A stretch of DNA of 64,000 bases. Origin: Liolophura sinensis. Its lineage: Eukaryota; Mollusca; Polyplacophora; Chitonida; Chitonidae. How positions within the stretch are numbered: position 1 is the first letter of the stretch; the number at the start of each line of letters is the position of its first letter. The position numbers and the translations under genes are program-made. The notes under the pieces are model-generated. The model was not told where the DNA came from. It saw only the letters and a program-made list of their open reading frames with translations, and did not search any database. The DNA lies in assembly GCF_032854445.1 (NCBI RefSeq), contig NC_088300.1, forward strand, positions 77,615,966 to 77,679,965, in the 5' to 3' direction. Shown one piece after another: positions 3,928-36,300 of this stretch.

Positions 3928-6900
3928 CTGAAAAGACAAGTTCACATAAACAGAAGGGAATAATCATGACTGTCATGGGCACAACCAGGAAATTCCAGTG
4001 GTTGGATTGGGGTGGGGGGTGAGGGAGATGGGTGGGGGACATGGGTGGGGAAGATGGGAGCCTTTTCTAAGATGTTCCTGATGGCCAGATATACACGCTC
4101 ACCATTTTCAAGCGAAAAAACTAATAATAGTTTGAACTCTTATCGCAGATTTTTACATTTAGCAATGTTCTTCAGTCTTCACCCTCTTATCAAAGACAAA
4201 ACATAAACTGACCCAAGCAACCAATACAAAATTTAGGGTAATACTAAGGTCATAAAAATAATCACGTAATATCATGGCACATGTAACTGGATTAAGGTAA
4301 AATCTTCTAATATTGTCCCTAATCTGTCCTAATTAAAAACATGTTTCATCCTGTGGAGTGAGCATTATTTTCAACAAGACAAATGCTTACCTCATTATCA
4401 TCTAATTCACAATATTTTATGTTTTCCTGGGCACTTATTTTCCTTAGACAGAGGAATGTATTATTTTTGGCATCTTCACATATGCAGTCTGGCTTGCAGT
4501 TCTAAAACAATATCAATATATCAGCATTATGTATTACATACAGTGACTTGTCATGCTGAAACCTACTCCACACAATAACACAACCTATTCATGTTATTTC
4601 CCTAGTGATTAATCGTTAGTTTACGCCATACACTGTAAAGAAACCATTGCGTCTATTCTCCATGATTTTCAAAATGGGGAAAGTACAGCAGTGTAACAAA
4701 GATATGTGCAAGAATCATGGGAATGTCCAAGATGTAATACACATGTAAATACAAAGTAGAGGAATAGGCATAAACTCACAGCCACTGACTGATTGGTCAG
4801 CTGGGGACATCCTGGTATAACATTGTGAGACTCGCCAAAATGCTCCACCAGGAACCTGTCCTCCATAAGTGGCTGGGGTTTAGGATGTTGTTGTTCTGAC
4901 ATGAGCAGTGGTGTGATGGAGACCCCATCCATATCTGAGGCTGGCTGGCCTCCTGCTAGCTTCACAAATGTCGGAGCAAGGTCGATGTTTAAAACCACTT
5001 CCTGTAATAATCCATGGACTTTTCTTTAATGTGTATAAACACAAGAAATAATTGAAGGTTCTAGTTACCACACATGGGATTTGTTTTTCGAGAAAGTGTG
5101 AAAAGTGAATCACTGGTGAAAACCACAAGCAAAATTCCCCCTCCTCATTTTTTTGTTGTTCTTTTGAAATGCAGTTAAATGTTTGGTGAACTTTCTTCCA
5201 CAGGCATTTTAGCTGTTCAGTTGGTACTACCTTTTCTACCTGGCTACCTGGCGTACTACCTTTTGACACAAGTCAGTCTGTCAAAGTTGTGACTTCCTAT
5301 CTTTTAACATGGGCCATTCACTTTACACTAAGTGTAAAATTTTGCACTTTATGGATACCAGCGATGCTTAGCCATGTTTTTCCATTATAATTTCAATTCA
5401 AAAGTAAGATATGGACACTGGTACCTATAAACTTCATCCACAAAGCCAATCAAAGCATTTCACATACTTTATTCATTGCAAAGAATCTTGTAAGTGAGGC
5501 AAACATAGTTTTGAATATACACCTCATTTTCAGTGATCTTCCTAAATTACTTTCAATTTGAGGTCCAACTGTCAAATTATGTTCCCTATAAAAAAAACCC
5601 CATAAACTCACTTGCTTAACCTGTCGTGCTGGTATACCAGGCCCTCTCACCATCAGTGGAACCCTGACGTCAAACTCGTATAACTGGCGCTTGTCAATCG
5701 GCAGAGAAAACTGACCTAGGAATGTGATGTAGGTGAGAGGGCAATATGTGTATCAGAATGGTTGTATCAGTTCGTCTGAACAGAAACCTGACATGCCTTG
5801 GAATTTACAAATCGAACTGAAGAAAGAAAGGTGATGATCCGTATTACATGAATTTGTCTATTACTATGTCTTCTGCTTCTACAGGTGATTACCTTCAACA
5901 GTTTTACACACTATCACTCTGAATTCACCAGACTGTAAATGTCATACATCTTACGCGAAAGGCCATAGCTTATACGAATGTGCTCTAAATGACCTAAAAT
6001 GTTGCCAGCAAAAGTGTAATTTTTAGAGGCACATAAATGTAACAAAATTTTATTTTTATTCTTGAAATTTACAATTTTTCAGTAAAATATCATCTCGTGT
6101 TTCAAACAAACCTCAGAACACTTTTCTAAAATCAACAGAACTTTCAGAATCTGGGAAGAACGGGCAAGTTAGTCGTGGACAAAATTTATTGTCATTAAAG
6201 GTACCTAACAGGTGGCCACCTTCATACTGAATTAGTTTCAATGTACAGCAAAACAAATCCTGAAATCATGTTTCATTTTGTCAAAAAGGATTCTCAAACA
6301 AACATTAAAGTATGAAAACTTAAAAACCTCCACCAGCAAGTCAACCTGGTATTATTTACCCAGGTGGAATCCATTGTCACTTGTGAAGAAGATATAGGTG
6401 TTATCCAGCAAACCTTTCTGCTGTAATGTGTTCACCACATCTTCCACCATGTCATCGACAGACAACAGGGTCCTCCATCTGTACAACAGTCAGAAATACA
6501 TTATAGTCCTATCTCACCCTTATCATGTCATCTACGAACAGGGTCTTCCATCTGTACAACAGTCAGATATACATTGCAGTCCTATCCCCACTCTCACCAT
6601 GTCATCTACAGACAGCATTGTCCTCCATCTGTACAACAGTCAGAAATACATTACAGTCCTATCTCACTCTCACCATGTCATCTACAGACAGCATTGTCTT
6701 CCATCTGTACATCAGTGAGAAATACATTACAGTCCTATCCCCACTCTCACCATGTCATCTACAGACAGCATTGTCCTCCATCTGTACAACAGTCAGAAAT
6801 ACATTACAGTCCTATCCCCACTCTCACCATGTCATCTACAGACAATAGGGTCCTCCATCTGTACAACAGTCAGAAATACATTACAGTCCTATACCACCTC

Positions 6901-9900
6901 ACCATGTCATCTACAGACAACAGGGTCCTCCATCTGCACAACAGTCAAAAATACATTACAGTCCTATCCTACCCTTACCTTGTCATCTACAGACAGCAGG
7001 GTCCTCCATCTGCACAACAGTCAGAAATACATTACAGTCCTATCTTACCCCACCACATCATCCACAGACAACGGCCATCAACTGTACAACAGTCAGCAAT
7101 AGATTACAGTCCTATCCTACCCTTACCTAGTCATCTACAGACTGCAGGGTCCTCCATCTGTACAACAGTCAAAAATACATTACAGTCCTATCTTACTCCA
7201 CCACATCATCCACAGGCAACAGGGTCATCAACTGTACAACAGTCAGAAATACATTACAGTCCTATCCTACCCTTACCATGTTATCTACAGACAACAGGGT
7301 CTTCCATCTGTACAACAGTCAGAAGTACATTACAGTCCTATCTCCACTCTCACCATGTCATCTACAGACAGCATTGTCTTCCATCTGTACAACAGTCAGA
7401 TATACATTACAGTCCTATCCCCACTCTCACCATGTCATCTACAGACAGCATTGTCCTCCATCTGTACAAAAGTGAGAAATACATTACAGTCCTATCCTAC
7501 CCTTACCATGTCATCTACAGACAGCAAGACTCTCCATCTGCACAACAGTCAGAAATACATTACAGTCACATCTTACTCCACCACATCATCCACAGAAAAC
7601 AGGGCAATCAACTGTACAACAGTCAGAAATACATTACAGTCCTATCCTACCCTTACCTTGTCATCTGCAGGCAGCAAGGTCCACCATCTGTACAGCAGTC
7701 AGAAATATATTACAGTCCTATACCACCTCACCATGTCATCTACAGACAACAGAGTCCTCCATCTGCACAACAGTCAGAAATACATTTCAGTCCCATCTTA
7801 CCCCACCACATCATCCACAGACAACAGGGTCATCAACTATACAACAGTGAGAAATACATTACAGTCCTATCTCACACTGCCACATCATCTACAGACAATA
7901 GGGTCCTCCATCTGTACAACAGTTAGAAATACATTACAGTCCTGTCTCACCTCACGACGCCATCTACAGACAACAGGGTCCTCCATCTGTACAACAGTCA
8001 GAAATACATTACAGTCCTATCCCCACTGTCACCATGTCATCTACAGACAACAGGGTCCTCCATCTGTACAACAGTCAGAAATACATTACAGTCCTATCCT
8101 ACCCCACCATGCCACCTACCGACAGTAGGGTCCTCCACAGTCAGAAATATAATACAGTCCTGTAACAGTCAGAAAACCTTGGTGTTGAAAAAATTGTTAG
8201 GATTAATATTCCTTCCACGTCATGATGATATCTGATGATAAGGCCTTAGTTACACTGTGAACAGTTAGTGCATTTCCAAGCTGCTTATCGACGTCACATC
8301 ATACCTGTTTCTGAAGGCGCAATCTGTGATATTCACCGAGGATTCTGACATAGGATTTCTGGCAGCCCTTATCAACCAGTGCTTATCCTGTTTGTAACAA
8401 AATGTTATTGTCAGTGTAATACTAGCACAGAATTACCTTCCAAAACGGATTCTCACCAGATACATGTAAAATATCACTAAAATTATTTTCATTTTATTTC
8501 CATAACCTGTAATGCCTCTTGTGAAATAACAATCCCCTACATGTACGCAAGACACATTTAATCAAATTTGTCTAATATTAGGGAGTGTCAGGCCACAGTA
8601 TTTCAGTGTGACATAGACAGTGCACTTTACACTTATAGACTTCAACCTTTTCAACCACCACTGCGACCAGTACTTGAAACGTTCTGAGTTCTGGGGTGTA
8701 CAGAAATAACTTGTGCAGTTTAACGAAGACTGCATCTTGAGTGGCACAAACAAACCGTTTTTTTAGCATCTTTTTCATAATAATGGCATGCATAAATTTC
8801 TCTCAAAAAAGTGCTGTACTGGTTTAAAAGACAGAAGATTTACAGTAAGGAAGAATTAAGATGATACTAGTCAATGCCAAGTTAAGTTGCTATGTTATAA
8901 CAATACAGTTACCAGGTAATAAAGTCTGAGAAAAGCGGTAGATATTTTGTTTACAGCCCACAGTTCCATGAATGCAAAATATGTACATATCTGCTTTGAC
9001 AATACATGTAACATCTACATACACTGCCATGTACATTGTAGTTGGGTATCCTGGGAGCTCGGAGGTCTGAGAAGTTCTGGGCATACTGCGGAGCAGGGGT
9101 GAAGGGGGCATGGCATGCTGGGGTGGACAGCATCATGAAGAATGGAGTGTTCTCTGTCTGGTAACTCAGAAACTCTAAGGCTTTCCTGTTCTAAACAGAG
9201 CAAAGTTTGTTCTCGCGATTTGCATGTACTGAATACTGAAGATCATCCATTCCAGTTTACTAATAGTAGTGACAATTAATGGGAGCAGATATTACCTGAA
9301 AAGGGGAACTACTTGAACATGTATACAGTGTTCAGAAATTCTGTGTGGCTGTCTCTCAAAAAGCTAAAACATGGAGCAAAAAAATGGAGCAAAAAAATGG
9401 AGCAACAACTTCAAAGGTTAGAAACTGACAAAATCACAACGTCTTTAAATTGACTATGTAGCCAGTATGGAGTAGAGAAATCTGGTGAATTTTGAGCACA
9501 GCTTCAGGAAAAGATTCCCAGAAGAATTAAAATACTTATATTTTAATTTCCTGCATTTTCTCATCATTCACTGAAAGATTGCTTCTAAAGATTTATTATA
9601 GGGATAGTAATGTCTTAAATTTGTTTTGCTTCTCACAATACGCTAATGTGGCTTACTTGTTCTTTAGGTAACTTTCCACAAGTACTTCATGCAGCAGTAG
9701 CTTGGCAAAAGTTCGTAGTTTTGGATGAAGCTATTACCAATTAATTAACAGGAAATATGGTGTATTTGCACTCCCATCCTCACCTCAAAGAGTTGAACAC
9801 TAAATCCAGGTGTGTTATGCTTTGACATACTGATACTCACAACAAGGTCGGTGAGGTAATCTTGTTTATACACCTCACCATGTTTCTCCTTTGTTCCGTT

Positions 9901-12900
9901 GATGGACAGCTTATAATCATAATAACGAGAATTTCCTACCTGAAATCATATTTGGCATAACAGTAAAACGTAGTAACTGGCTAATCTTAGAGTCCTACGA
10001 CAGTACTCCATGTAACATAATTACTGGAGTAGTATATATCATAAATGCCAAAAGACAGAGTATACTGCCTAGTTCAACAGGAGGCAGTTAGCTCTAAGCC
10101 TTCCAAGGCCAAATTTGCTGGCTTAACATACACATATTACAGGTCAAACATAAGCATTTATGTATATTAAACCACCAGTTCAAGACTTAAAAAAACATGC
10201 ATCAGACCGCCAAGTGTAAACCTACCAGTCCCACCCACCAGTTCCAGCCTAAGTGAACATACATCACAGCACCAGCTGTAAACCCACCTGTTCCAGCCTA
10301 AATGAACATGCATCACACCACCTGCAATAAACCTACCTGTCGCAGCCTAAGTGAACATGCATCACAGCACCTGCTGTAAACCTGCCAGTCCCACCCACCA
10401 GTCCCAGCCTAAGTGAACATGCATCACAGCACCAGCTGTACACCTACCAATCTCAACCTAAGTGAACATGCATCACAACACCAACTGTAAACCTGCCAGT
10501 CCCACCCACCAGTCCCAGCCTAAGTGAACATGCATCACAGCACCAGCTGTACACCTACCTGTCCCAGCCTAAGTGAACATGCATCACACCACCAACTGTA
10601 AACCTACCAGTCCCACCCACCAGTCCCAGCCTAAGTGAACATGCATCACAGCACCAGCTGTACACCTACCAATCTCAACCTAAGTGAACATGCATCACAA
10701 CACCAACTGTAAACCTGCCAGTCCCACCCACCAGTCCCAGCCTAAGTGAACATGCATCACAGCACCAGCTGTACACCTACCTGTCCCAGCCTAAGTGAAC
10801 ATGCATCACACCACCAACTGTAAACCTGCCAGTCCCACCCACCAGTCCCAGCCTAAGTGAACATGCATCACACCACCAGCTGTAAACCTACCTGTCCCAG
10901 CCTAAGTGAACATGCATCACACCACCAACTGTAAACCTACCAGTCCCACCCACCAGTCCCAGCCTAAGTGAACATGCATCACAGCACCAGCTGTACACCT
11001 ACCAGTCCCAGCCTAAGTGAACATGCATCACACCACCAGCTGTAAACCTACCAGTCCCAGCCTAAGTGAACATGCATCACACCACCAACTGTAAACCTAC
11101 CAGTCCCACCCACCAGTCCCAGCCTAAGTGAACATGCATCACACCACCAGCTGTAAACCTACCTGTCCCAGCCTAAGTGAACATGCATCACACCACCAAC
11201 TGTAAACCTACCAGTCCCACCCACCAGTCCCAGCCTAAGTGAACATGCATCACAGCACCAGCTGTACACCTACCAGTCCCAGCCTAAGTGAACATACATC
11301 ACACCACCAACTGTAAACCTGCCAGTCCCACCCACCAGTCCCAGCCTAAGTGAACATACATCACACCACCAACTGTAAACCTGCCAGTCCCACCCACCAG
11401 TCCCAGCCTAAGTGAACATACATCACACCACCAGCTGTAAACCTACCAGTCCCATCCACCAGTCCCAGCCTGGGGGTACATGTTTTACACCGCCTGCTGT
11501 ACGTTTTCCATACTGCAAAACAAAGTAAACAAAAAGTAATTGTTAAACTGCTTCCAGTAGCATGTATGATTGAGGCAATTCTGTACAAGTTCCAAATCAT
11601 TAACTTCATCGTGTGAAAGTTGGACACATGACAACATTAATTTACTGTTCACCTAAAGTTTCTTATATCAGATCTCTAGTGTGAAAACATCAGACTAACT
11701 AACAATACACCTGCCTACCTGATTTAAATACTTCCCTGCAAAGAAGGTGTTGTAGCCTCTCTGTTTAATGTATGTGATAAATGTGTGTTTCTCTGGGCCT
11801 GCCTGCCAGGCTGGACTGCTACAGTTCCCAGAGATGGAGTTATTTAGAGCGTTATGGTTGTGGATGTACTTCCCAGTTAGTATACTGGAGCGACTCGGAC
11901 AACATAGCGGGCTGGTCACAAACTGTAAGAAATCAGGGTTAACTGATATGTGAGGAATATCTTTAACTGTAAATATGCACCACTACAATAAACCAAAACT
12001 GACACTACATCGTAATATTGACATGTAGAAATGTTGACTAGGTAAGTCAGTGGCAAAGTATTCCCAGCTTACATGTACAGATGATGGGTATCGCGCCTTG
12101 TTATGTATGTGATTTCCCCTTGGTCTAGCGTATTCCCAGCTTGCATGTACAGATGATGGGTATCGCGCCTTGTTATGTATGTGATTTCCCCCTGGTCTAG
12201 CGTATTCCCAGCTTGCATGTACAGATGATGGGTATCGCGCCTTGTTACCTATGCGATTTCCCCCTGGTCTAGCGTATTCCCAGCTTGCATGTACAGATGA
12301 TGGGTATCGCACCTTGTTACGTATGTGATTTCCCCCTGGTCTAGCGTATTCCCAGCTTGCATGTACAGATGATGGGTATCGCGCCTTGTTACCTATGTGA
12401 TTTCCCCCTGGTCTAGCGTATTCCCAGCTTGCATGTACAGATGATGGGTATTGCGCCTTGTTACGTATGTGATTTCCCCCTGGTCTAGCGTATTCCCAGC
12501 TTGCATGTACAGATGATGGGTATCGCGCCTTGTTACGTATGTGATTTCCCCCTGGTCTAGCGTATTCCCAGCTTGCATGTACAAATGATGGGTATCGCGC
12601 CTTGTTACCTATGTGATTTCCCCCTGGTCTAGCGTATTCCCAGCTTGCATGTACAGATGATGGATATCGCGCCTTGTTACCTATGTGATTTTCCTCTGGT
12701 CTAGCGTATTCCCAGCTTGCATGTACAGATGATGGGTATCGCACCTTGTTATGTATGTGATTTCCCCCTGGTCTAGCGTATTCCCAGCTTGCATGTACAG
12801 ATGATGGGTATGGCACCTTGTTATGTATGTGATTTCCCCTTGGTCTAGCGTATTCCCAGCTTGCATGTTCAGATGATGGGTATTGCGCCTTGTTATGTAT

Positions 12901-15754
12901 GTGATTTCCCCCTGGTCTAGCGTATTCCCAGCTTGCATGTACAGATGATGGGTATCGCGCCTTGTTACCTATGTGATTTCCCCCTGGTCTAGCGTATTCC
13001 CAGCTTGCATGTACAGATGATGGGTATTGCGCCTTGTTACGTATGTGATTTCCCCCTGGTCTAGCGGCTTCCCAGCTTGCATGTACAGATGATGGGTATC
13101 GCGCCTTGTTACCTATGTGATTTCCCCCTGGTCTAGCGTATTCCCAGCTTGCATGTACAGATGATGGGTATCGCGCCTTGTTACCTATGTGATTTCCCCC
13201 TGGTCTAGCGTATTCCCAGCTTGCATGTACAGATGATGGGTATTGCGCCTTGTTACGTATGTGATTTCCCCTTGGTCTAGCGTATTCCCAGCTTGCATGT
13301 ACAGATGATGGGTATCGCGCCTGGTTACGTATGTGATTTCCCCCTGGTCTAGCGTATTCCCAGCTTGCATGTACAGATGATGGGTATCGCGCCTTGTTAT
13401 GTATGTGATTTCCCCTTGGTCTAGCGTATTCCCAGCTTGCATGTACAGATGATGGGTATCGCGCCTTGTTACCTATGTGATTTCCCCCTGGTCTAGCATA
13501 TTCCCAGCTTGCATGTACAGATGATGGGTATCGCGCCTTGTTACCTATGTGATTTCCCCCTGGTCTAGCGTATTCCCAGCTTGCATGTACAGATGATGGG
13601 TAGCCTTGTTACGTATGTGATTTCCCCCTGGTCTAGCGTATTCCCAGCTTGCATGTACAGATGATGGGTATCGCGCCTTGTTATGTATGTGATTTCCCCC
13701 TGGTCTAGCGTATTCCCAGCTTGCATGTACAGATGATGGGTATCGCGCCTTGTTACCTATGTGATTTCCCCCTGGTCTAGCGTATTCCCAGCTTGCATGT
13801 ACAGATGATGGGTATCGTGCCTGGTTACCTATGTGATTTCCCCCTGGTCTAGCGTATTCCCAGCTTGCATGTACAGATGATGGGTATCGTGCCTGGTTAC
13901 GTATGTGATTTCCCCCTGGTCTAGCGTATTCCCAGCTTGCATGTACAGATGATGGGTATCGCACCTTGTTATGTATGTGATTTCCCCCTGGCCTAGCGTA
14001 TTCCCAGCTTGCATGTACAGATGATGGGTATCGCGCCTTGTTACCTATGTGATTTCCCCCTGGTCTAGCGTATTCCCAGCTTGCATGTACAGATGATGGG
14101 TATTGCGCCTTGTTACCTATGTGATTTCCCCCTGGTCTAGCGTATTCCCAGCTTGCATGTACAGATGATGGGTATCGCGCCTTGTTACCTATGTGATTTC
14201 CCTCTGGTCTAGCGTATTCCCAGCTTGCATGTACAGATGATGGGTATAGCGCCTTGTTGCCTATGTGATTTCCCCCTGGTCTAGCGTATTCCCAGCTTGC
14301 ATGTACAGATGATGGGTATCGCGCCTTGTTATGTATGTGATTTCCCCCTGGTCTAGCGTATTCCCAGCTTGCATGTACAGATGATGGGTATCGCGCCTTG
14401 TTACGTATGTGATTTCCCCCTGGTCTAGCGTATTCCCAGCTTGCATGTACAGATGATGGGTATCGCGCCTTGTTACCTATGTGATTTCCCCCTGGTCTAG
14501 CGTATTCCCAGCTTGCATGTACAGATGATGGGTATCGCGCCTTGTTACCTATGTGATTTCCCTCTAGTCTAGCGTGATTATGACTCATCCCTCCAGCTGG
14601 TCAACCCAGTCATAAAAAACTTTAGTTGCAATAACTGCTGATGGGTTTGAAAACATCCCACAGGGTGGGTGAAAACCAACTTAGACAGCACCCTTTGCAG
14701 GCTCTAACAGAAACAGACCCACAGATAGCTACCATCATTATTAGCAGAGGCACATGTAAGCTCAGAATTGCCTAAGAATGAATGACTGAATGCTTGGGGT
14801 TTAACGATGTACTTCAAGACAATGAATGAATGAATGAATGTTTGGGGTTTAACGTCATACTTAACAATATTTCAGTCATATGACCATGAGGAGCCATTTT
14901 GTTTGTTACATATACTGTGTCGCCCTGTGGTAGGGCAGTCCATGCTGCCAAAGTGCTGCCACCAAGCTGGGAAGATGCCCAGGACTCCAGGCATGACACT
15001 CCACCCAGTCACATTACAATGACACCGGGCAAACCAGTCCTTTTTCCTTGCTCTAACCTCTCAGTGTTGACTGCCAAGAGAGGCAGCAACAAGTATCATT
15101 TTCAAGGTCTTGGGTATGACCGGACCCGGGCTTGATCTCGGGTCACTTGACTTTGTGGTGAACACTCTAAGCATTTATAAGCCACCTAAGTGGTAGAACT
15201 GTATAGGAACCCAATGTATAACATTCACAGCTCTTCCATTCTTACCGCATTATTAAAAATGATCCCTTCATCTCCAATCAGCTTTTTTGTTTTCTTCATG
15301 GGGTTCTGGAAAAATCATGCACAAAACATCACTAAGAAACAATACAATCTGGTCATCATTTTACATACCCGTAAATAACAGGTTGAGATGAACCTGCAAC
15401 TGATATAATTTAAGAATTCCTGTTATGTACATGCAGTTTACAATTAACCAATGAAATCATTTATGTCATGATTAAAATTTGGTACGCTGACCATACGCTA
15501 CCATAATAACATTAAAGCTGTATGGGACTGAAATCTCAGCTGGTGATCAGAGACATATTTTACATGTCTGTAAAACTAAATGTTACCTGACCTCCCAGGT
15601 AAATGTCCTGATCATCAGTCAACACAAACACAATGTTCACAGAATTACTGCCTGCAGATGACGTCACTGTTCTGGTACATGTATGTATGAGCGTCATTGT
15701 GGTGGTCAGGGCTGTGAGGCTCACCAGTAAGCCTACAATTGGCATCCACATCAT
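3760..15754 (-). CDS. GNS: N-acetylglucosamine-6-sulfatase, copy A (12 exons, complete)
   Basis: Lysosomal glucosamine (N-acetyl)-6-sulfatase, which hydrolyses 6-sulfate from N-acetylglucosamine 6-sulfate during heparan and keratan sulfate breakdown. Exons in transcript order: 15587-15754, 15246-15305, 11719-11922, 11447-11512, 9841-9939, 9023-9190, 8305-8387, 6360-6478, 5612-5715, 4780-5001, 4391-4501, 3760-3927. All junctions are GT-AG and in frame, giving about 523 aa against 552 in human. A hydrophobic N-terminus ([13 protein letters not shown]) is a signal peptide. LTDDQD at 45-50 holds metal-binding aspartates. Sulfatase signature 1 ([13 protein letters not shown], 81-93) has the formylglycine Cys83, and signature 2 ([12 protein letters not shown]) is at 132-143. 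SDNG at 316-319 is the later metal-site motif. NCSS and NNTY are possible N-glycosylation sites. The start is the first in-frame ATG (15752-15754); a TTG precedes it. Introns 2, 4 and 7 hold large minisatellites, two of them exon-derived. Confidence 0.95.
3928..6359 (-). other. introns 8-11 of GNS copy A
   Basis: The non-coding parts between exons 12 and 8 (3928-4390, 4502-4779, 5002-5611, 5716-6359) contain no recognisable gene or element. A G-rich stretch (GGGTGGGG-like) sits at 4009-4060. The rest is ordinary AT-rich intron. Confidence 0.6.
6360..6478 (-). CDS. GNS: GNS copy A exon 8 (source of the adjacent minisatellite)
   Basis: This 119-nt exon encodes [15 protein letters not shown] through [10 protein letters not shown]. 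It starts by completing an Arg codon split with exon 7 and ends one base into a Gly codon. Its first ~28 nt and its acceptor are copied in the tandem array that begins at 6479. It differs from exon 8 of copy B at only two bases, one silent (CTG/TTG) and one Ser-to-Gly. Confidence 0.95.
6479..8170. repeat. ~70-bp minisatellite made from the 5' boundary of GNS exon 8 (copy A)
   Basis: About 24 units lie in intron 7, directly upstream of exon 8 in transcript direction. On the minus strand a unit has TTGTACAG (the exon 8 acceptor), then ATGGAGGAC and CTGTCTGTAGATGACATGG, which are exon 8 bases, then intron-like sequence. Exon 8 itself is the last unit. Units fall into sub-types (CACCATGTCAT, CACCACATCAT, TACCTTGTCAT on the plus strand). 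Plus-strand ORFs of up to 450 codons through this array are artefacts of a repeat with few stops. Confidence 0.95.
8171..10199 (-). other. GNS copy A introns 4 (part) to 6 around exons 5-7
   Basis: Exons 7 (8305-8387), 6 (9023-9190) and 5 (9841-9939) lie here; the intervening introns 8388-9022, 9191-9840 and the start of intron 4 contain no recognised element. A short triple repeat of ATGGAGCAAAAAA occurs at about 9370-9405. Confidence 0.6.
10200..11446. repeat. exon 4-derived minisatellite in GNS copy A intron 4
   Basis: About 22 units alternate between a 62-bp form and a 49-bp form, a composite of about 111 bp. The 62-bp form aligns across its length with exon 4 plus its donor: both share CAGTCCCA-CCACCAGTCCCAG, then an ACATG block, then ACACC and GCTGTA. 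Translated on the minus strand, units read GWDWWVGL, as exon 4 reads GWDWWMGL. The array ends exactly at the splice donor of exon 4 (exon low end 11447), so the exon looks like its terminal unit. Confidence 0.9.
11447..11512 (-). CDS. GNS: GNS copy A exon 4
   Basis: This 66-nt exon encodes [19 protein letters not shown] and three further residues, flanked by acceptor TTTGCAG and donor GTAGGT. The matching exon in copy B (33874-33939) has the same length and phase. The tandem array at 10200-11446 is derived from it. Confidence 0.95.
11719..11922 (-). CDS. GNS: GNS copy A exon 3, catalytic core
   Basis: This 204-nt exon holds both sulfatase signatures. [10 protein letters not shown] carries the cysteine oxidised to formylglycine by the sulfatase-modifying enzyme. 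[12 protein letters not shown] is signature 2. HNHNALNN and GNCSSPAWQ are typical GNS sequence, the latter with an N-glycosylation site. It is about 87% identical in protein to copy B exon 3. Confidence 0.97.
12045..14577. repeat. 72-bp minisatellite, about 35 copies, in GNS copy A intron 2
   Basis: This is the largest array in the window. The unit contains GGTCTAGCGTATTCCCAGC, TTGCATGTACAGATGATGGG and TATCGCGCCTTGTTACSTATG (S variable). Units are very uniform, so it expanded recently or is being homogenised. Because 72 is divisible by three, the minus strand reads through for up to 347 codons ([20 protein letters not shown] repeated). I found no similarity to a GNS exon, a start signal or a splice pattern that would make it coding. 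Confidence 0.97.
14777..15150 (-). mobile_element. tRNA-derived SINE, type I
   Basis: The left end is a GAATGAATG microsatellite followed by TTTGGGGTTTAACGTCATAC and CAGTCATATGAC, the 3' tail region. The right end, about 15110-15145, has the tRNA-like B-box region (GACCCGGGCTTGATCTCGGG on the plus strand; head on the minus strand). The body (GTGCTGCCACCAAGCTGG, AACCTCTCAGTG) also matches the reversed copy at 37528-37810. It lies in intron 2 of GNS copy A. Confidence 0.75.
15246..15305 (-). CDS. GNS: GNS copy A exon 2
   Basis: This 60-nt exon encodes [20 protein letters not shown], phase 0 at both ends, with donor GTAAGA and a CCAG acceptor. It matches the family segment just after LTDDQD (TPLKKTKALIGEMG in human). 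It has the same length as copy B exon 2. Confidence 0.93.
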
Positions 15755-20529: not shown

Positions 20530-20690
20530 ACTGTTTTCCAGATACAGGTGAGTGTATAGGTAAGCGTCTTGACCTACCTTACAGGTGAGTGTACAGGTGA
20601 GCGCCTTGACCTACCTTACAGGTGAGTGTATTGGTGAGCGTCTTGACCTACCTTACAGGTGAGTGTACAGGTGAGCGTCTTAACCTAACT
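20530..20690. repeat. ~37-bp short tandem repeat, four copies
   Basis: Units of ACAGGTGAGTGTACAGGTGA then GCGTCTTGACCTACCTT directly follow the 30-bp array. Each unit contains CAGGTGAGT, a perfect plus-strand splice-donor-like sequence, but it is antisense to the sulfatase gene. Confidence 0.8.
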
Positions 20691-27300: not shown

Positions 27301-30300
27301 AAAAGAAATACCTGTCCATGATTTAAAAAGAGCCTATTTTCCATGTACTTATATGGCAAAACTGATCAAATCTTTGAAAAGGTAAAAATAATTGCTGCTA
27401 CATAAGTTTCCATGGATGTCTACAGATCACCTTTGGCTGCAATTTCTGTACACCATACAGCCTATTTAAGGTGTTAACCATATCAGAAATACAAATTACA
27501 GAAGGCTATTCACAACTGAGCTCACCTCCCTAACCTGCCCTGCAGCTATACCAGGCCCCCTCACCATCAATGGCACCCGGATGTCAAACTCATACAACTG
27601 GCGCTTGTCAATCGGCAGAGAAAACTGACCTGAGATCATCATCAGAAGAAATATCATCCATCTCGTTTGTTATAAACACAAATAATGTAGTCATCCAAAA
27701 TCCACTATTTTGTGTGGTAATGTAATACAAATAAATCACCTACTATAACATATATAAACACACTATCATAATTTATTTCTATTTAGTTTCGGTAAAATTT
27801 TCCTGATGTGACATGTTAATATTAGTTACTAGTTAGTCAGTGATAGGATACAGAAACACACTGTACATGGTGTCAGTAACCCACCTACTGGGCAGGGTGT
27901 TAGCCGTGTAACAAATTTATCCTCCAAACGATCCATCAGTTCAGTGCACAAGATCAATATATCCACATATTGCTTCGGCAAATTTTCACGTCCAAAAAAG
28001 GGAGATAACCCAGTCAACAGATGCATATGCCAAGGGCTTGAAGATATGGGAACATATATGTCTCCCAAGGCAACTGTCCAATTACCACTTTTGTCTGATC
28101 TCTTATGGTATGTTGACTCAGTCAGATATGATGTCCAGTAAGGCAACATTTGAAAATATGGCCACTTTTGTAGCTATACATCAAGGTTACTAGCATACCT
28201 TGTGGTGTGATAACAGGAAAAAAGAGGAATGGCAGAAAGCATTTACTTCTATATTATCCTATAAAACTTACAATGACAGTTTTGATGCACTGCAATTTTC
28301 AACAAAAATTAGAAAATCTTGATCCTTATCATTTAACCCTGCTTTTAAGACACAGGGGCATTTACACTGGTGTAGCTCTTTAAACAAAGTGGTTTCAACA
28401 AACCGTCACCTGTAATTTTAGTCTTTCTAACATGGATGTATGTGTGCATTCAGTTGAAAAACAGAATCCATACTTGTAACAAAAATTTAATTTGTACTTA
28501 CCCAAGTGGAATCCATTGTCACCTGTGAAGAAGATATAGGTGTTATCCAGCAAACCTTTCTGCTGTAATGTGTTCACCACATCTTCCACCATGTCATCGA
28601 CAGACAACAGGGTCCTCCATCTGTACAACAGTCAGAAATACATTATAATCCTATCTCACCCTTACCATGTCATCTACAAAAAGGGTCTTCCATCTGTACC
28701 AGAGTCAGAAATACATTACAGTCCTATCCCCACTCTCACCATGTCATCGACAGACAGCATTGTCCTCCATCTATACAAGTGAGAAATACATTACAGTCCT
28801 ATCCCCACTCTCACCATGTCATCTACAGACAGCATTGTCCTCCATCTGTACAACACTGAGAAATACATTACAGTCCTATCCCCACTCTCACCATGTCATC
28901 TACAGACAGCATTGTCCTCCATCTGTACAACAGTCAGAAATACATTACAGTCCTATCTCACTCTCACCATGTCATCTACAGACAGCATTGTCCTCCATCT
29001 GTACCATAGTGAGAAATACATTACAGTCCTATCTCACTCTCACCATGTCATCTACAGACAGCATTTTCCTCCATCTGTACAAGTGAGAAATACATTACAG
29101 TCCTATCTCACTCTCACCATGTCATTTACAGACAGCATTGTCCTCCATCTGTACCACAGTGAGAAATACATTACAGTCCTATCTCACTCTCACCATGTCA
29201 TCTACAGACAGCATTGTCCTCTATCTGTACCACAGTGAGAAATACATTACAGTCCTATCTCACTCTCACCATGTCATCTACAGACAGCATTGTCCTCCAT
29301 CTGTACAAGTGAGAAATACATTACAGTCCTATCCCCACTCTCACCATGACATCTACAGACAGCATTGTCCTCCATCTATACAAGTGAGAAATACATTACA
29401 GTCCTATCCCCACTCTCACCATGTCATCTACAGACAGCATTGTCCTCCATCTGTACAACAGTCAGAAATACATTACAGTCCTATCCCCACTCTCACCATG
29501 TCATCTGCAGACAGCATTGTCCTCCATCTGTACAACAGTCAGAAATACATTACAGTCCTATCTCACTCTCACCATGTCATCTACAGACAGCATTGTCCTC
29601 CATCTGTACAACAGTCAGAAATACATTACAGTCCTATCCCCACTCTCACCATGTCATCTACAGACAGCATTGTCCTCCATCTGTACCACAGTGAGAAATA
29701 CATTACAGTCCTATCTCACTCTCACCATGTCATCTACAGACAGCATTGTCCTCCATCTGTACAAGTGAGAAATACATTACAGTCCTATCTCACGCTCACC
29801 ATGTCATCTACAGACAGCATTGTCCTTCATCTGTACCACAGTGAGAAATACATTACAGTCCTATCTCACTCTCACCATGTCATTTACAGACAGCATTGTC
29901 CTCCATCTGTACCATAGTGAGAAATACATTACAGTCCTATCTCACTCTCACCATGTCATCTACAGACAGCATTGTCCTCCATCTGTACAAGTGAGAAATA
30001 CATTACAGTCCTATCTCACGCTCACCATGTCATCTACAGACAGCATTGTCCTTCATCTGTACCACAGTGAGAAATACATTACAGTCCCATCTCACTCTCA
30101 CCATGTCATTTACAGACAGCATTGTCCTCCATCTGTACAACAGTCAGAAATACATTACAGTCCTATCCCACCCCACCACATCATCTACAGACACCAGGCT
30201 CCTCCATCCGTACAATGGGATTCAAAGATGGTGGCTGGAGTTCAAATTTATCCAGCTTCCACCAGTTTCATGCTTGCCAGGATTTACCTGGGATGACACA

Positions 30301-33300
30301 CAAGGACATCTATCTGCAATTGATAGCTGAGACAACTATGAGTACGAACAGACACATCATTTGGCGGCCAACAGTAGTGTATTGAAGCCAGCACGGAAAG
30401 TACAGAGGTCTTCAAGGTAAGTTCATGGATCAAGACAAGGCTGTGATAGTATACGTAATCACAGCCCTACAGAGCTATGTGTGGCAGTGCCTTTGCATAA
30501 TCCTTCAAACTCATGTCTTATCATTTATCTACATCTAAATAAAATCACATATTTATATTACTGTAAGGATTCTGTAAGCCTCATATGAAAAGAACTAAAA
30601 ACAATAAACCTAAAACGTTCAGGACAGATTTGGGCATCAGCGGGTTGCAGAGTTTTCACTGTAGGCTACTTCTGGTGGACGGACACATAGCCTGGAGTAT
30701 TTTTTTTTGAATTTGAGTGGTGTGTTAAAGAAGTTTTCAAGATTAGCCTACATTAATGATTGTGTGCAGACATAATTGCTGACCAAAATGCCACCGGGGA
30801 AGATATACAGAAGAGGGATTTACACAGAAACAGTGAATCCAGCCCAAGCACTTTTGAGATATTATTTCTACTGTTTAAGATTTTCCAAACCATATAGTGT
30901 GTGTCAGTTGATAAAGTTTGACACTTGTGAGTATTATTTACTTATTCCAATACAACATGCCTATTGCTCTTCAATCTTGGCAAAGTTTCACAGCTGGACA
31001 CTAAGCCTGCATGAGTTCTTCTCCCAAGTCTGCATGAAACTTCTGAGTATTTTAATTAAGCCTACAATAATCCATTTTGCTGTTGCTGCTAACACCCATC
31101 ATATTTTTTACACAAATATAGCATATACCAAGACATTACTGTCCAAACCGAAAAAAAAAAACAACCCGTAAAACATATGTTATTGATACACATACAAGCT
31201 ATTCATATACGTTTTGCTTCAACTTTTATTCAAGTTCACAAAAAAAAATTTGATATCAGATTTCATCTGGGTGTTGGTTCAAATAATGTATTGTTTAGCA
31301 TAAATTAACAGAGTGGAACTATTTCCATGAAGGCATTTTGTAGTCAAAAAGAGTCAGTAAAGAAAATACTAAGGCAGCCTAAAGTACACTGTGTCTGGTA
31401 CGTGAAAAATTCAAATAAAGTATATTGATGCAAATGGAAAATTATTTCTTTTTCTGTGAGGAAAACTCTTTCTTCATACTTTTGGTATGTGGGTGCTTTT
31501 CATACATCGTTTGGTACAAACTACAAATTCTCCACAAAGATATATTATACAGACAAAATCTAACTTGTCCTTCAACGTGTTTATCATTTTTTACCACGTT
31601 TGTACATTTGTACAAATTTGTATTGTATTACCGTGTTGTTGTTGGTTGCACAGCACGTCAGCGTCAAAGCGTCAATTTTGTCTGCTAAATTACTGAGTGG
31701 CAGATAATTTTTCACTGGCAACGACTCCCACAACAAGGAAAACCTTCTACGGAAGAAACAAAAGACATCTGTCCAACTTTAAAGGAGATGAAGAATGCAG
31801 AATTAGCTTTAGCAGTCATGGTGATCCAGTACAAATCTCGTCTGGACTCTCTACTTTAATAGAAGGTTGCCATGTTGCAATCAAAAAGACACACATCAGA
31901 TATTTTACATCAGTTTCATGTATGGTGATAGTCTTTCAAAAATCATTCTCACGAAGAACTAAATTTTTCAGCACGTTAGCGTGTAGGCATAACAATTCTC
32001 AGCCACTTATGTGTGATCAGTCACAGTGGACGGATCACTGACTGTGCAGGTGACTGTCTGTCCCAGAGCTCTCTACAAACCCTCTACAAACTCTCTAAAA
32101 GACCCCTAGGATCATGCTAATCTCCTGCCTGGTTTTGACTTTCAGCCTGAGCTGTACTGTACATGAATCGCCTTATACTGTGCTATACTTACCTATTTCT
32201 CCTCTCCGGCCATACGTGGGAAGGTCGGAGAAATATTCTTGATTATGGCGTAAAACACTAATCAAATAAATAAATAAATAAATAAATAAGTAAATTTACC
32301 TATTTCTGAAGGCGTCGTCAGCCATATCTACAGACTCCTGACTCATGGGAGATTTGGCAGCTCGGATCAACCAGTGTTTGTCCTAACAACCAAAACATGA
32401 ATGAATCAACATTTATTTATCATCTTTGACTTATTTTTAGCAGCAAAGTCTGTGTTGTTTGTTAATGTACGTTTATCTATTTTACTGACATATGAGGATT
32501 ATAATAGAGCTGTGTTACATAATATTATTTTATCCAGATGCATTTCTGTAATCAGTTCTTGTAACTCTGAACAATCTGTTTAAAATACCTTTCACCAAAA
32601 TAGCTGACAAACAAAAGCACAGAATATTTACAGTTCCATGAACATTGTAGCTGCCGTTTCTTGGAGCTTTCAAATCAGAAAAGTTCTTGGCATACTGGGG
32701 GGCGGGGGTGAAGGGGGCGTGGCATGCTGGGGTGGACAGCATCATGAAGAATGGGTCGTTCTCTGTCTGGTAATTCAGAAACTCTATGCCTCTTCTGTGC
32801 TGTAAAGTGAAAATTAGCAGAAGTATGTTTTGGTAGATTTATGCACTTTGTACGACACATATGCTGTTCAAACTATTAGCATAGCAGTGTATTCAAGTGG
32901 ACCAGGGGTGGTCTGAGTGTTTTTCTTTTTTGCTTTTTACTGGCATTACAAATTTACATTATACATTACTTTATGTAAAGCATCTGTGTGAAGCTACAAA
33001 TGACTTACTATAACATCTGTCAGGTAATCCTTCTCATAGTCTTTCCCATGCTTCTCCATAGTTCCATTGACTGACAGGGCGTAGTTATAATACCTGGAGT
33101 TACCCACCTACAAGGAGATACATTCTCAAACTTCTCTCACAAGTCTTTGTTTGATTGATTGACTGGTGTTTAATATAACTGTAGTATTTAAGGGTTTTTC
33201 CACTTATATGACAATGGTCAGGTTTATAGGGAGAGGAAGCCAGAGTGCCCGCAGTACAGCACTGACCTTTGCCGGGCACCTGACAAACCTCTTGAATGAA

Positions 33301-36300
33301 GCAAAGAATGCAACCTGACTGGTCAAGAACTTGACAGATGCTGTACACCACAGGTGTATAAAGCATCCTCTAAAATACTTAATCTTTGTATACATCACGT
33401 CCATGGATGTTTGATGGAGTAATGGACACAGTAATGAGAAGAAAATATAAATATAAAACAGCTGATAACTGACTTATTATTGTAACACCCAAATTCAATG
33501 ACATGCCCCTCACTATCAACTCTCAGTAAGACTTGGTGACAGGCAAAATGTTGGCTGTCAAAAATGGCATGGAACAGGCTACCGGCAGTGGATCAGCTTG
33601 TATTACAGGGGTAGGGGAACTTATGGACTGTCCATGTGACTTCAATGATCAGGTTAACAAATTTGCATTGTGATTAATAAAGACAACAGGCTGCATTTTG
33701 CTATTATTTCCAGCAACAGAAGTTGAGGCAATTTCAAGGCATTTAATTCCTTGCCAAAAATTTAGACCTCTGAATATGTCATTTACTAAAGCAGGTAATA
33801 AAGTCCAAACAAAGGCTGTGGTACCTTCACAAGAATTGTTCACACAAGCCAAGGGGAGGTAATTCTGACTTACCAGTCCCACCCACCAATCCCACCCTGG
33901 GGGCACATGCTGAACACCTCCTGTTTGAGGGAATCCATACTGTAAGCAAATCAAACATTTTTACTTGTGTCAAAGCTGCTTATAACTGACTGTATGCTTC
34001 AGGGTACAAATTTACACATTGGTTGATTGGGATATCACTGTCCATTTGGTTTATGAATTGGTAACTAAAACAAAAACATGGATACTTTACTAACTGACAA
34101 ATTAACTCCATGTATCCAGTTTTAAAACAGAACAAATGTAAATTAGATGTACATTTACTTTGCCTTCTCTTCTTACTTTGTGACAATGATATAGTGAAAT
34201 AATGCTGTTGTGGCCTGGCACATTCCTTCAATCTCTCAGTATTTCTTCCCTTGTGTCTACAGTATATTTCACATTTAAAATTCAATACCTGATTGAGATA
34301 TTTTCCAGAGAAGAAGGTGTTGTATCCTTGGCTCTTTATTTTGGTGATAAAAGCTTCTTTCTCTGGGCCTGCCTGCCAGGCTGGGCTGCTACAGTTCCCA
34401 GCCACAGAGTTGTTGAGAGCATTGTGGTTGTGGATATACTTGCCTGTGAATATACTGGAGCGACTCGGACAACATAGCGGACTGGTCACAAACTATGAAG
34501 AGAATAACCACTATGATCAAACTTACCGGACACTGTCACATGGTACTAAGCAGCTGCCACACGCTACTAAGCAGCTGTCACACTGTACTATGCAGCTGTC
34601 ACAAGGTACTATGCAGCTGTCACACAGTACTATGCAGCTGTCACATGGTACTAAGCAGCTGTCACACTGTACTAAGCAGCTGTCACACTGTACTAGGCAG
34701 CTGCCACATGGTACTATGCAGCTGTCACATGGTACTATGCAGCTGCCACACATTACTAAGCAACTGTCACACATTACTAAGCAGCTGTCACTGTACTAAG
34801 CAGCTGTCGCACAGTATTAAGCAGCTGCCACATGTTACTAAGCAGCTGTCACACGTTACTAAGCAGCTGTCACATGGTACTAAGCAGCTGTCACAAGGCA
34901 CTATGCAGCTGTCACACTGTACTAAGCAGCTGTCACATGGTAGTATGCAGCTGTCACACGGTACTAAGCAGCTATCACTGTACTAAGCTGCTATCACACA
35001 GTACTAAGCAGCTGTCACCCTGTACTATGCAGCTGTCACACTGTACTAAGCAGCTGTCATACAGTACTAAGCAGCTGTCACACTGTACTAAGCAGCTGTC
35101 ACACAGTACTAAGCAGCTGTCACACTGTACTATGCAGCGGTCACACTGTATTATGCAGCTGTCACAAGGTACTATGCAACTGTCACACGGTACTAAGCAG
35201 CTGTTGCATGGTAGCATTCAGCTGTCACACGCTACTAAGCAGCTGTCACATGTTACTAAGCAACTGTCACAAGGTACTATGCAGCTGCCACGTTACTAAG
35301 CAGCTGTCACACTTTACTAAGCAGCCGTCACACGTTACTAAGCAGCTGCCACACATTACTAAGCAGCTGTCACACTGTACTAAGCAGCTGTTACATGGTA
35401 CTAAGCTGCTGTCACAAGGTACTATGCAGCTGCCACACGTTACTAAGCAGCTGTCACACATTACCAAGAAGCTGCCACACATTACAAAGCAGCTGTCACA
35501 TGGTACTAAGCAGCTGTCACACATTACTAAGCAGCTGCCACATGTTACTAAGCAGCTGTCATACATTACTAAGTAGCTGTCACATGGTACTAAGCAGCTG
35601 TCACACATTACTAAGCAGCTACCACATGTTACTAAGCAGCTATCATACATTACTAAGTAGCTGTCACATGGTACTAAGCAGCTATCATACATTACTAAGT
35701 AGCTGTCACATGTTACTAAGCAGCTGTCACACATTACTAAGCAGCTGCCACATGGTACTAAGCAGCTGTCACACATTACCAAGAAGCTGCCACACATTAC
35801 TAAGCAGCCGTCACACTGTACTATGCAGCGGTCACACTGTATTATGCAGCTGTCACAAGGTACTATGCAACTGTCACACGGTACTAAGCAGCTGTTGCAT
35901 GGTAGCATTCAGCTGTCACACGCTACTAAGCAGCTGTCACATGTTACTAAGCAACTGTCACAAGGTACTATGCAGCTGCCACGTTACTAAGCAGCTGTCA
36001 CATGGTACTAAGCAGCTGTCACACATTACTAAGCAGCTGTCACATGTTACTAAGCAGCTGTCATACATTACTAAGCAGCTGTCACAAGGTACTAAGCAGC
36101 TGTCACACAAAATGATTCAAGATTACACATATGACAGAAGAATAACATCACATATATTTAAACGATGGTAGATCATCTCTTTTGTTGCTGGCAAAAAATA
36201 AACATAAATATTCAAAATAAAGAAACAGTAAGTAACAAAAAAATATTTTGACAGTTTAATATTAAATGCATTCTTCTCTTGTAACAAAATATCACAGTTC

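Follow-up and report, generated by a model that had tools for sequence, protein, structure and literature searches.

A mirage-type minisatellite at the intron 7/exon 8 junction of a chiton sulfatase gene, with a related array in its tandem paralogue and similar ones in other genes

In amphioxus, minisatellites called mirages lie next to coding exons, have units made of both exon and intron sequence, and keep splice signals in many of their copies. According to the accessible parts of the two reports, mirages occur in Adh3, TnC and the globin genes BflGb6 and BflGb9, and duplications in PGBD5 are alike (PMC3087553, PMC3902484). They reportedly leave regular splicing undisturbed, as judged partly by RT-PCR (PMC3087553, as excerpted). 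In human segmental duplications, the exon-intron boundaries of recent paralogues carry internal tandem repeats (PMC2812944, accessible text). Among molluscs, intron 3 of a TSSK1-like gene of the abalone Haliotis discus hannai contains a length-variable minisatellite with a 27-bp unit (PMC6905558, accessible text). No mollusc mirage minisatellite was found among the matches listed by a literature search over open-licence papers. The chiton array analysed here (array A) belongs to the amphioxus kind. The novelty that a preliminary description claimed for a minisatellite at an exon boundary of a sulfatase gene is therefore not supported, as the accessible parts of both amphioxus reports already describe such arrays (PMC3087553, PMC3902484).

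The window (the whole 64-kb stretch of DNA that was analysed, positions 77615966-77679965 of contig C6, from the chiton Liolophura sinensis) contained two tandem GNS-like sulfatase genes, A and B, both on the minus strand. The features of the junction were as follows:

about 15.7-3.8 kb, minus strand, exons of gene A, a GNS-like sulfatase
39.3-24.2 kb, minus strand, exons of gene B, the tandem paralogue of A
8305..8387, minus strand, exon 7 of A, with donor GTATGA, homologous to exon 7 of B
32300..32382, minus strand, exon 7 of B, homologous to exon 7 of A
6360..6478, minus strand, exon 8 of A (119 nt), the real exon and seed of array A, with a Pfam Sulfatase match
28502..28620, minus strand, exon 8 of B, the same as exon 8 of A at 117/119 nt
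6479..8138, minus strand, mirage array A, in intron 7 of gene A, with 22 units (72-77 nt each)
28621..30207, minus strand, mirage array B, at the corresponding junction of the tandem paralogue B, with 21 units

Reading frames were open through exons 2-11 in each gene, real junctions included, and Pfam PF00884 (sulfatase) matched exons 7-8. The best PDB match of exons 2-11 of gene A was 5g2v (E 1.1e-37), a GlcNAc-6-sulfatase and the closest solved relative. GNS (N-acetylglucosamine-6-sulfatase) would be a reasonable name for the host genes. Minisatellites were abundant across the window: intron 2 of A contained one at 12058-14575 (72 bp x 35) and intron 2 of B another at 34533-36108 (21 bp x 75), with a unit unlike that in A. 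The intron 2 array of A scored 40 against exon 3 where the shuffle maximum was 37, a marginal result for which no mirage is claimed. Between the two genes, at 20543-20687, there was a 37-bp repeat with two donor-like CAGGTGAG motifs per unit and no known exon near.

Array A directly adjoined the real coding exon 8. Tandem Repeats Finder called the repeat at 6445-8137 (period 77, 22.4 copies), and division of the minus-strand sequence at the acceptor positions yielded 22 units (8138-6479) followed by the real exon (6478-6360). The preliminary description had reported an array of about two dozen units, each joining the end of intron 7 to the start of exon 8, that stops at the real exon, and had placed the end of exon 7 at 8305; both statements agree with the present data. 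The length of the exon part was underestimated at about 28 nt, as each unit comprised both a ~34-nt copy of exon 8 and ~43 nt of intron end. The exon-8 copies had 25-33 identities per 34 nt (mean 85%).

Similarity to exon 8 unit by unit, on which the earlier proposal depended, was borne out. Local alignment of the array A units to exon 8 gave scores of 39-68 (median 55, n=22), compared with a mean of 22 and a maximum of 44 for 1,100 dinucleotide shuffles. Five of the 22 units scored at or below that maximum, and single array A units are weaker evidence of an exon-8 origin than the array consensus; none of the 21 array B units scored at or below theirs (38). Among the 20 exons compared (exons 2-11 of both genes), exon 8 of each gene scored 109 against the array consensus and the next exon 34, with a shuffle maximum of 56. 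A genome search for the acceptor-plus-exon pattern with at most one mismatch returned one place on contig C2, the remaining matches lying in array A or array B; the five matches to exon 8 plus the start of intron 8 lay within genes A and B or within array A. The unit structure, the unit alignments and the exon comparison support growth of array A from the junction of intron 7 with exon 8. With the outermost units of both arrays excluded, exon-copy columns of array A diverged more than its intron columns (0.192 vs 0.106, permutation p 0.02, 21 units); array B had the opposite trend, which was not significant (0.043 vs 0.092, p 0.14, 20 units).

Splice signals were kept in many copies of both arrays, with the AG intact in 21/22 units of A and 20/21 of B. 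The acceptor was lost in the outermost unit of A (8138), and the exact motif, TTGTACAG directly followed by ATGGAGGAC, was present in 8/22 array A units, so the true 3' splice site is not repeated in every unit, contrary to the earlier statement. Using matrices built from genes A and B only, and hence small (18 acceptors and 19 donors), 12 of the 22 decoy acceptors in A equalled or exceeded the score of the real site, in line with the earlier picture of near-identical decoys, but only 5 of 21 did so in B. A GT was found at copy position 32-33 in 16/22 units of A and 20/21 of B. In 14/22 array A units this was a GTRAG donor-like site 31 nt past the acceptor, so that the unit resembles a 31-nt pseudo-exon; inclusion of the 31-nt pseudo-exon present in most array A units would shift the frame. 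The best decoy donors scored 2.1-9.2, and the real donors 3.3-10.6 when left out one at a time. Use of a decoy acceptor without a donor would lead to an in-frame stop within 31 codons in 22/22 units of A and within 33 codons in 21/21 of B. The preliminary description mentions none of these donor-like sites, nor array B, the second mirage at the exon 4 donor or the arrays in other genes.

Gene A contained a second mirage, which duplicated the exon 4 donor:

10172..11446, minus strand, donor-side mirage in intron 4 of A, ~22 copies of the exon 4 end plus donor
11447..11512, minus strand, exon 4 of A, seed of the donor-side array
33874..33939, minus strand, exon 4 of B, with donor GTAAGT and no array after it

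The copies were mostly 49 or 62 nt long, and the 21 junctions past the real exon 4 donor had GT in 15 cases and GC in six. The array consensus scored 109 against exon 4 of A, 60 against exon 4 of B and 28 against the next exon; in a hand-made unit consensus the match to exon 4 spanned 55 nt. Intron 4 of B was an ordinary intron in which the donor-side array was absent. The 62-nt copies read GTG where exon 4 of A now reads ATG; since exon 4 of B also has GTG, these copies may preserve an older state of exon 4.

Similar arrays were sought at 36 other loci (11 sulfatase, 12 P450, 7 ALDH and 6 sugar transporter; the lead locus L001 is not counted). These loci were hand-picked from ranked exon matches, with their repeats unseen beforehand, and are not a random sample. 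For sulfatase, 21 of 46 exon matches were used, plus one from a further search; the figures for P450, ALDH and sugar transporter were 20 of 98, 12 of 14 and 10 of 11. The AMP-binding family was also searched and, with few multi-exon matches, left out of the locus sample. Reading of the sequences revealed mirages of at least three copies in 6/36 loci, on the donor side in L002, L003, L010, L013 and L025 and on the acceptor side in L021. Two further loci, L019 and L031, had two-copy donor duplications. The copies in L003 were degenerate, and L021 was the weakest case by score. The arrays of L008 and L009 were candidates by score and on reading were not mirages.

The donor mirages at L002:572-1783 and L003:4798-5193 lie at the same exon end (CACCCAATACAYACAG) of related sulfatase genes and carry different intron halves, perhaps through independent seeding at one site. 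The acceptor-side mirage at L021:2419-6985, in a P450 gene, has ~88 copies of 52 bp in which ~20 nt of exon are copied. The two-copy donor-junction duplications, at L019:2818-2873 (28 bp) and L031:2195-2268 (37 bp), are possibly the first stage of a mirage. At L001:38-3269 on contig C13, a 46-bp array of ~73 copies contains GTGTACAG motifs, with no known exon match there.

Among the first 30 loci, arrays were scored against exons in 217 own-locus pairs and in 6,263 cross-locus pairs, the latter with a maximum of 54; own-locus pairs above 54 came from L002, L003, L010, L013 and L031. With exon-end probes, 6/107 scored above the 99.9% point of the cross-locus distribution (2,675 scores), where 0.12 were expected (L002, L003, L010, L013, L019 and L031; one of 108 probes, lacking flank, was dropped). 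The maximum of this null, 64, was exceeded by one probe only and is suspected to have been raised by the related genes L002 and L003. The L021 probe scored 32 (p 0.006), below the 99.9% point, and the exon of L025 lay outside the probed set; both mirages were identified by reading. In a replication planned beforehand, one of the six sugar-transporter loci (L032) passed the threshold. Its match was one diverged copy ~150 nt away, with no array, and arrays were thus found in 0/6 sugar-transporter loci.

Six of 58 arrays (L002, L003, L010, L013, L021 and L031) were founded at a boundary, at 128 exon-match ends, counting two L003 arrays as one and leaving out L025, whose exon was not on the list. 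Uniform seeding would give 1.0 such arrays when an overlap of 6 nt on each side is demanded (P 0.0007) and 1.4 when it is not (P 0.003). The test was made after the fact, two of the loci counted (L002 and L003) are related genes, and the L031 array consists of two copies, so this result is no more than suggestive of targeted minisatellite seeding at splice sites.

Arrays A and B differed in unit composition. The closest pairs of units (A10/B08 and A20/B09) had one difference, and the boundary units A22 and B21 clustered together (support 0.95) with four differences and a common 3-nt gap. A candidate extra row of array B at 30313-30208 was dropped as a spurious anchor. Between the two genes, exon 8 differed at 2/119 sites and the other nine exons at 305/1,106; exon 8 had a dS of 0.04, and exons 2-7 and 9 had values of 0.49 up to saturation. 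No similarity was detected between A and B in intron 7 upstream of the array (score 42, shuffle maximum 63) or in intron 8 (score 76, shuffle maximum 105). The array and exon 8 together are an A/B homology island. A near-identical exon 8 and near-identical array units amid diverged other exons point to DNA exchanged between A and B, for which gene conversion across the island would be the simplest reading. The array may have made a 119-bp exon into a homology block of roughly 1.7 kb, long enough for conversion. Exon 4, which has an array in A only, was not homogenised (A/B identity 77%); it is a single control, and one such comparison does not prove a causal role of the array in the exchange.

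The identity of exon 8 could instead reflect purifying selection together with an old shared array and no recent exchange, as exon 8 codes for a conserved sulfatase segment and units A22 and B21 are common to both arrays. We consider this quite improbable: synonymous sites of exon 8 are nearly unchanged too (1 of 24.3 sites differs; exons 2-7 and 9 together differ at 93.8 of 168.8; binomial P about 1e-7), and the intronic parts of the arrays match as well, to one difference per unit. Artefactual assembly or a collapsed repeat is less probable still, and hardly credible. Tandem arrays are difficult to assemble and HiFi coverage was 14x, but the mean HiFi read of 8,347 bp is longer than each array (PMC11068029, accessible text). 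A and B are, moreover, unlike in unit composition and flanks, and similar arrays occur at further loci.

Array A is most likely (probability about 0.85) a mirage-type minisatellite, an expanded junction duplication that is a near-neutral by-product without function. There is good support for its having arisen by local tandem duplication over the junction and subsequent turnover, and the same arrangement in unrelated genes of the genome counts towards it. A short tandem duplication across the intron 7/exon 8 junction would have come at the start, followed by expansion and homogenisation through slippage, unequal exchange and gene conversion, the usual processes of minisatellite turnover. As the copies sit within intron 7 and are probably removed with it, a near-neutral by-product is favoured; the array probably has no function. 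The real exon 8 would still be selected by exon definition, perhaps because a donor lies at normal exon distance from its acceptor, while the decoys, which mostly meet a donor-like site ~31 nt on, would be passed over. A regulatory role is possible and, in our judgement, unlikely: decoy acceptors and donor-like ends would form poison pseudo-exons, and frameshift and nonsense-mediated decay would lower or tune expression. The GT positions, with the 31-nt frameshifting pseudo-exons that they imply, the decoy donor scores and the stop within 33 codons in 43/43 units when an acceptor is used without a donor all fit such a role. Pseudo-exons of 31 nt lying ~45 nt apart are, on the other hand, poor targets for the spliceosome; the copies drift, the exon-copy columns of array A are not conserved, and mirages of unrelated genes have different sequences and involve both junction types.

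Beyond the near-neutral by-product, it is conceivable, as a tentative extension which we rather doubt, that in this chiton exon-intron boundaries are preferred birthplaces of minisatellites, with mirages at all stages from two-copy seeds to ~88 copies in unrelated families of genes, and that arrays shared by tandem paralogues become conversion platforms that homogenise the coding exon beside them. If true, mirages would be a general engine of intron growth, of possible intron gain and of exon-level concerted evolution outside lancelets.

New here are the related array at the same junction of the tandem paralogue B, inside a homology island; the second mirage in gene A, duplicating the exon 4 donor and absent from B; and the mirages across the sample of sulfatase, P450, ALDH and sugar transporter loci, six of 36 plus two of two copies. 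These results extend mirages from lancelets to a mollusc and suggest that mirages there are not rare. The A/B pair suggests a route by which an array within an intron could drive the conversion of a coding exon. Mirages are also natural series of near-identical acceptors or donors within one transcript, so rejection of decoys by the spliceosome can be tested with RNA-seq already deposited for the species.

Among other known systems, the human 6-16/IFI6 minisatellite is reported, by the title of a 1995 paper by Turri, to provide multiple splice donor sites. Those donors, again by title, act in the transcript, whereas the chiton exon 8 array consists of acceptors and is known from genomic sequence alone. 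The human boundary repeats have units of about 30 bp, in four copies on average, and are discussed in the accessible text as sources of new introns (PMC2812944); the chiton array, unlike them, enlarges an existing intron. The abalone TSSK1-like minisatellite is likewise intronic and from a mollusc, and its description, in the accessible text, mentions no span across an exon boundary (PMC6905558). The closest likeness is to amphioxus mirages, in which, by the accessible parts of the reports, an exon-intron junction is likewise repeated in tandem, on the acceptor or the donor side, with the units at the boundary escaping homogenisation and splice signals kept in many copies (PMC3087553, PMC3902484). 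The chiton arrays differ from them in several respects: the host is a mollusc and not a cephalochordate; copy numbers are 22 and 21, compared with 6 and 3 reported for two amphioxus BflGb6 haplotypes in the accessible text; the array is common to two tandem paralogues with a near-identical exon; and acceptor and donor-like signals occur inside one unit.
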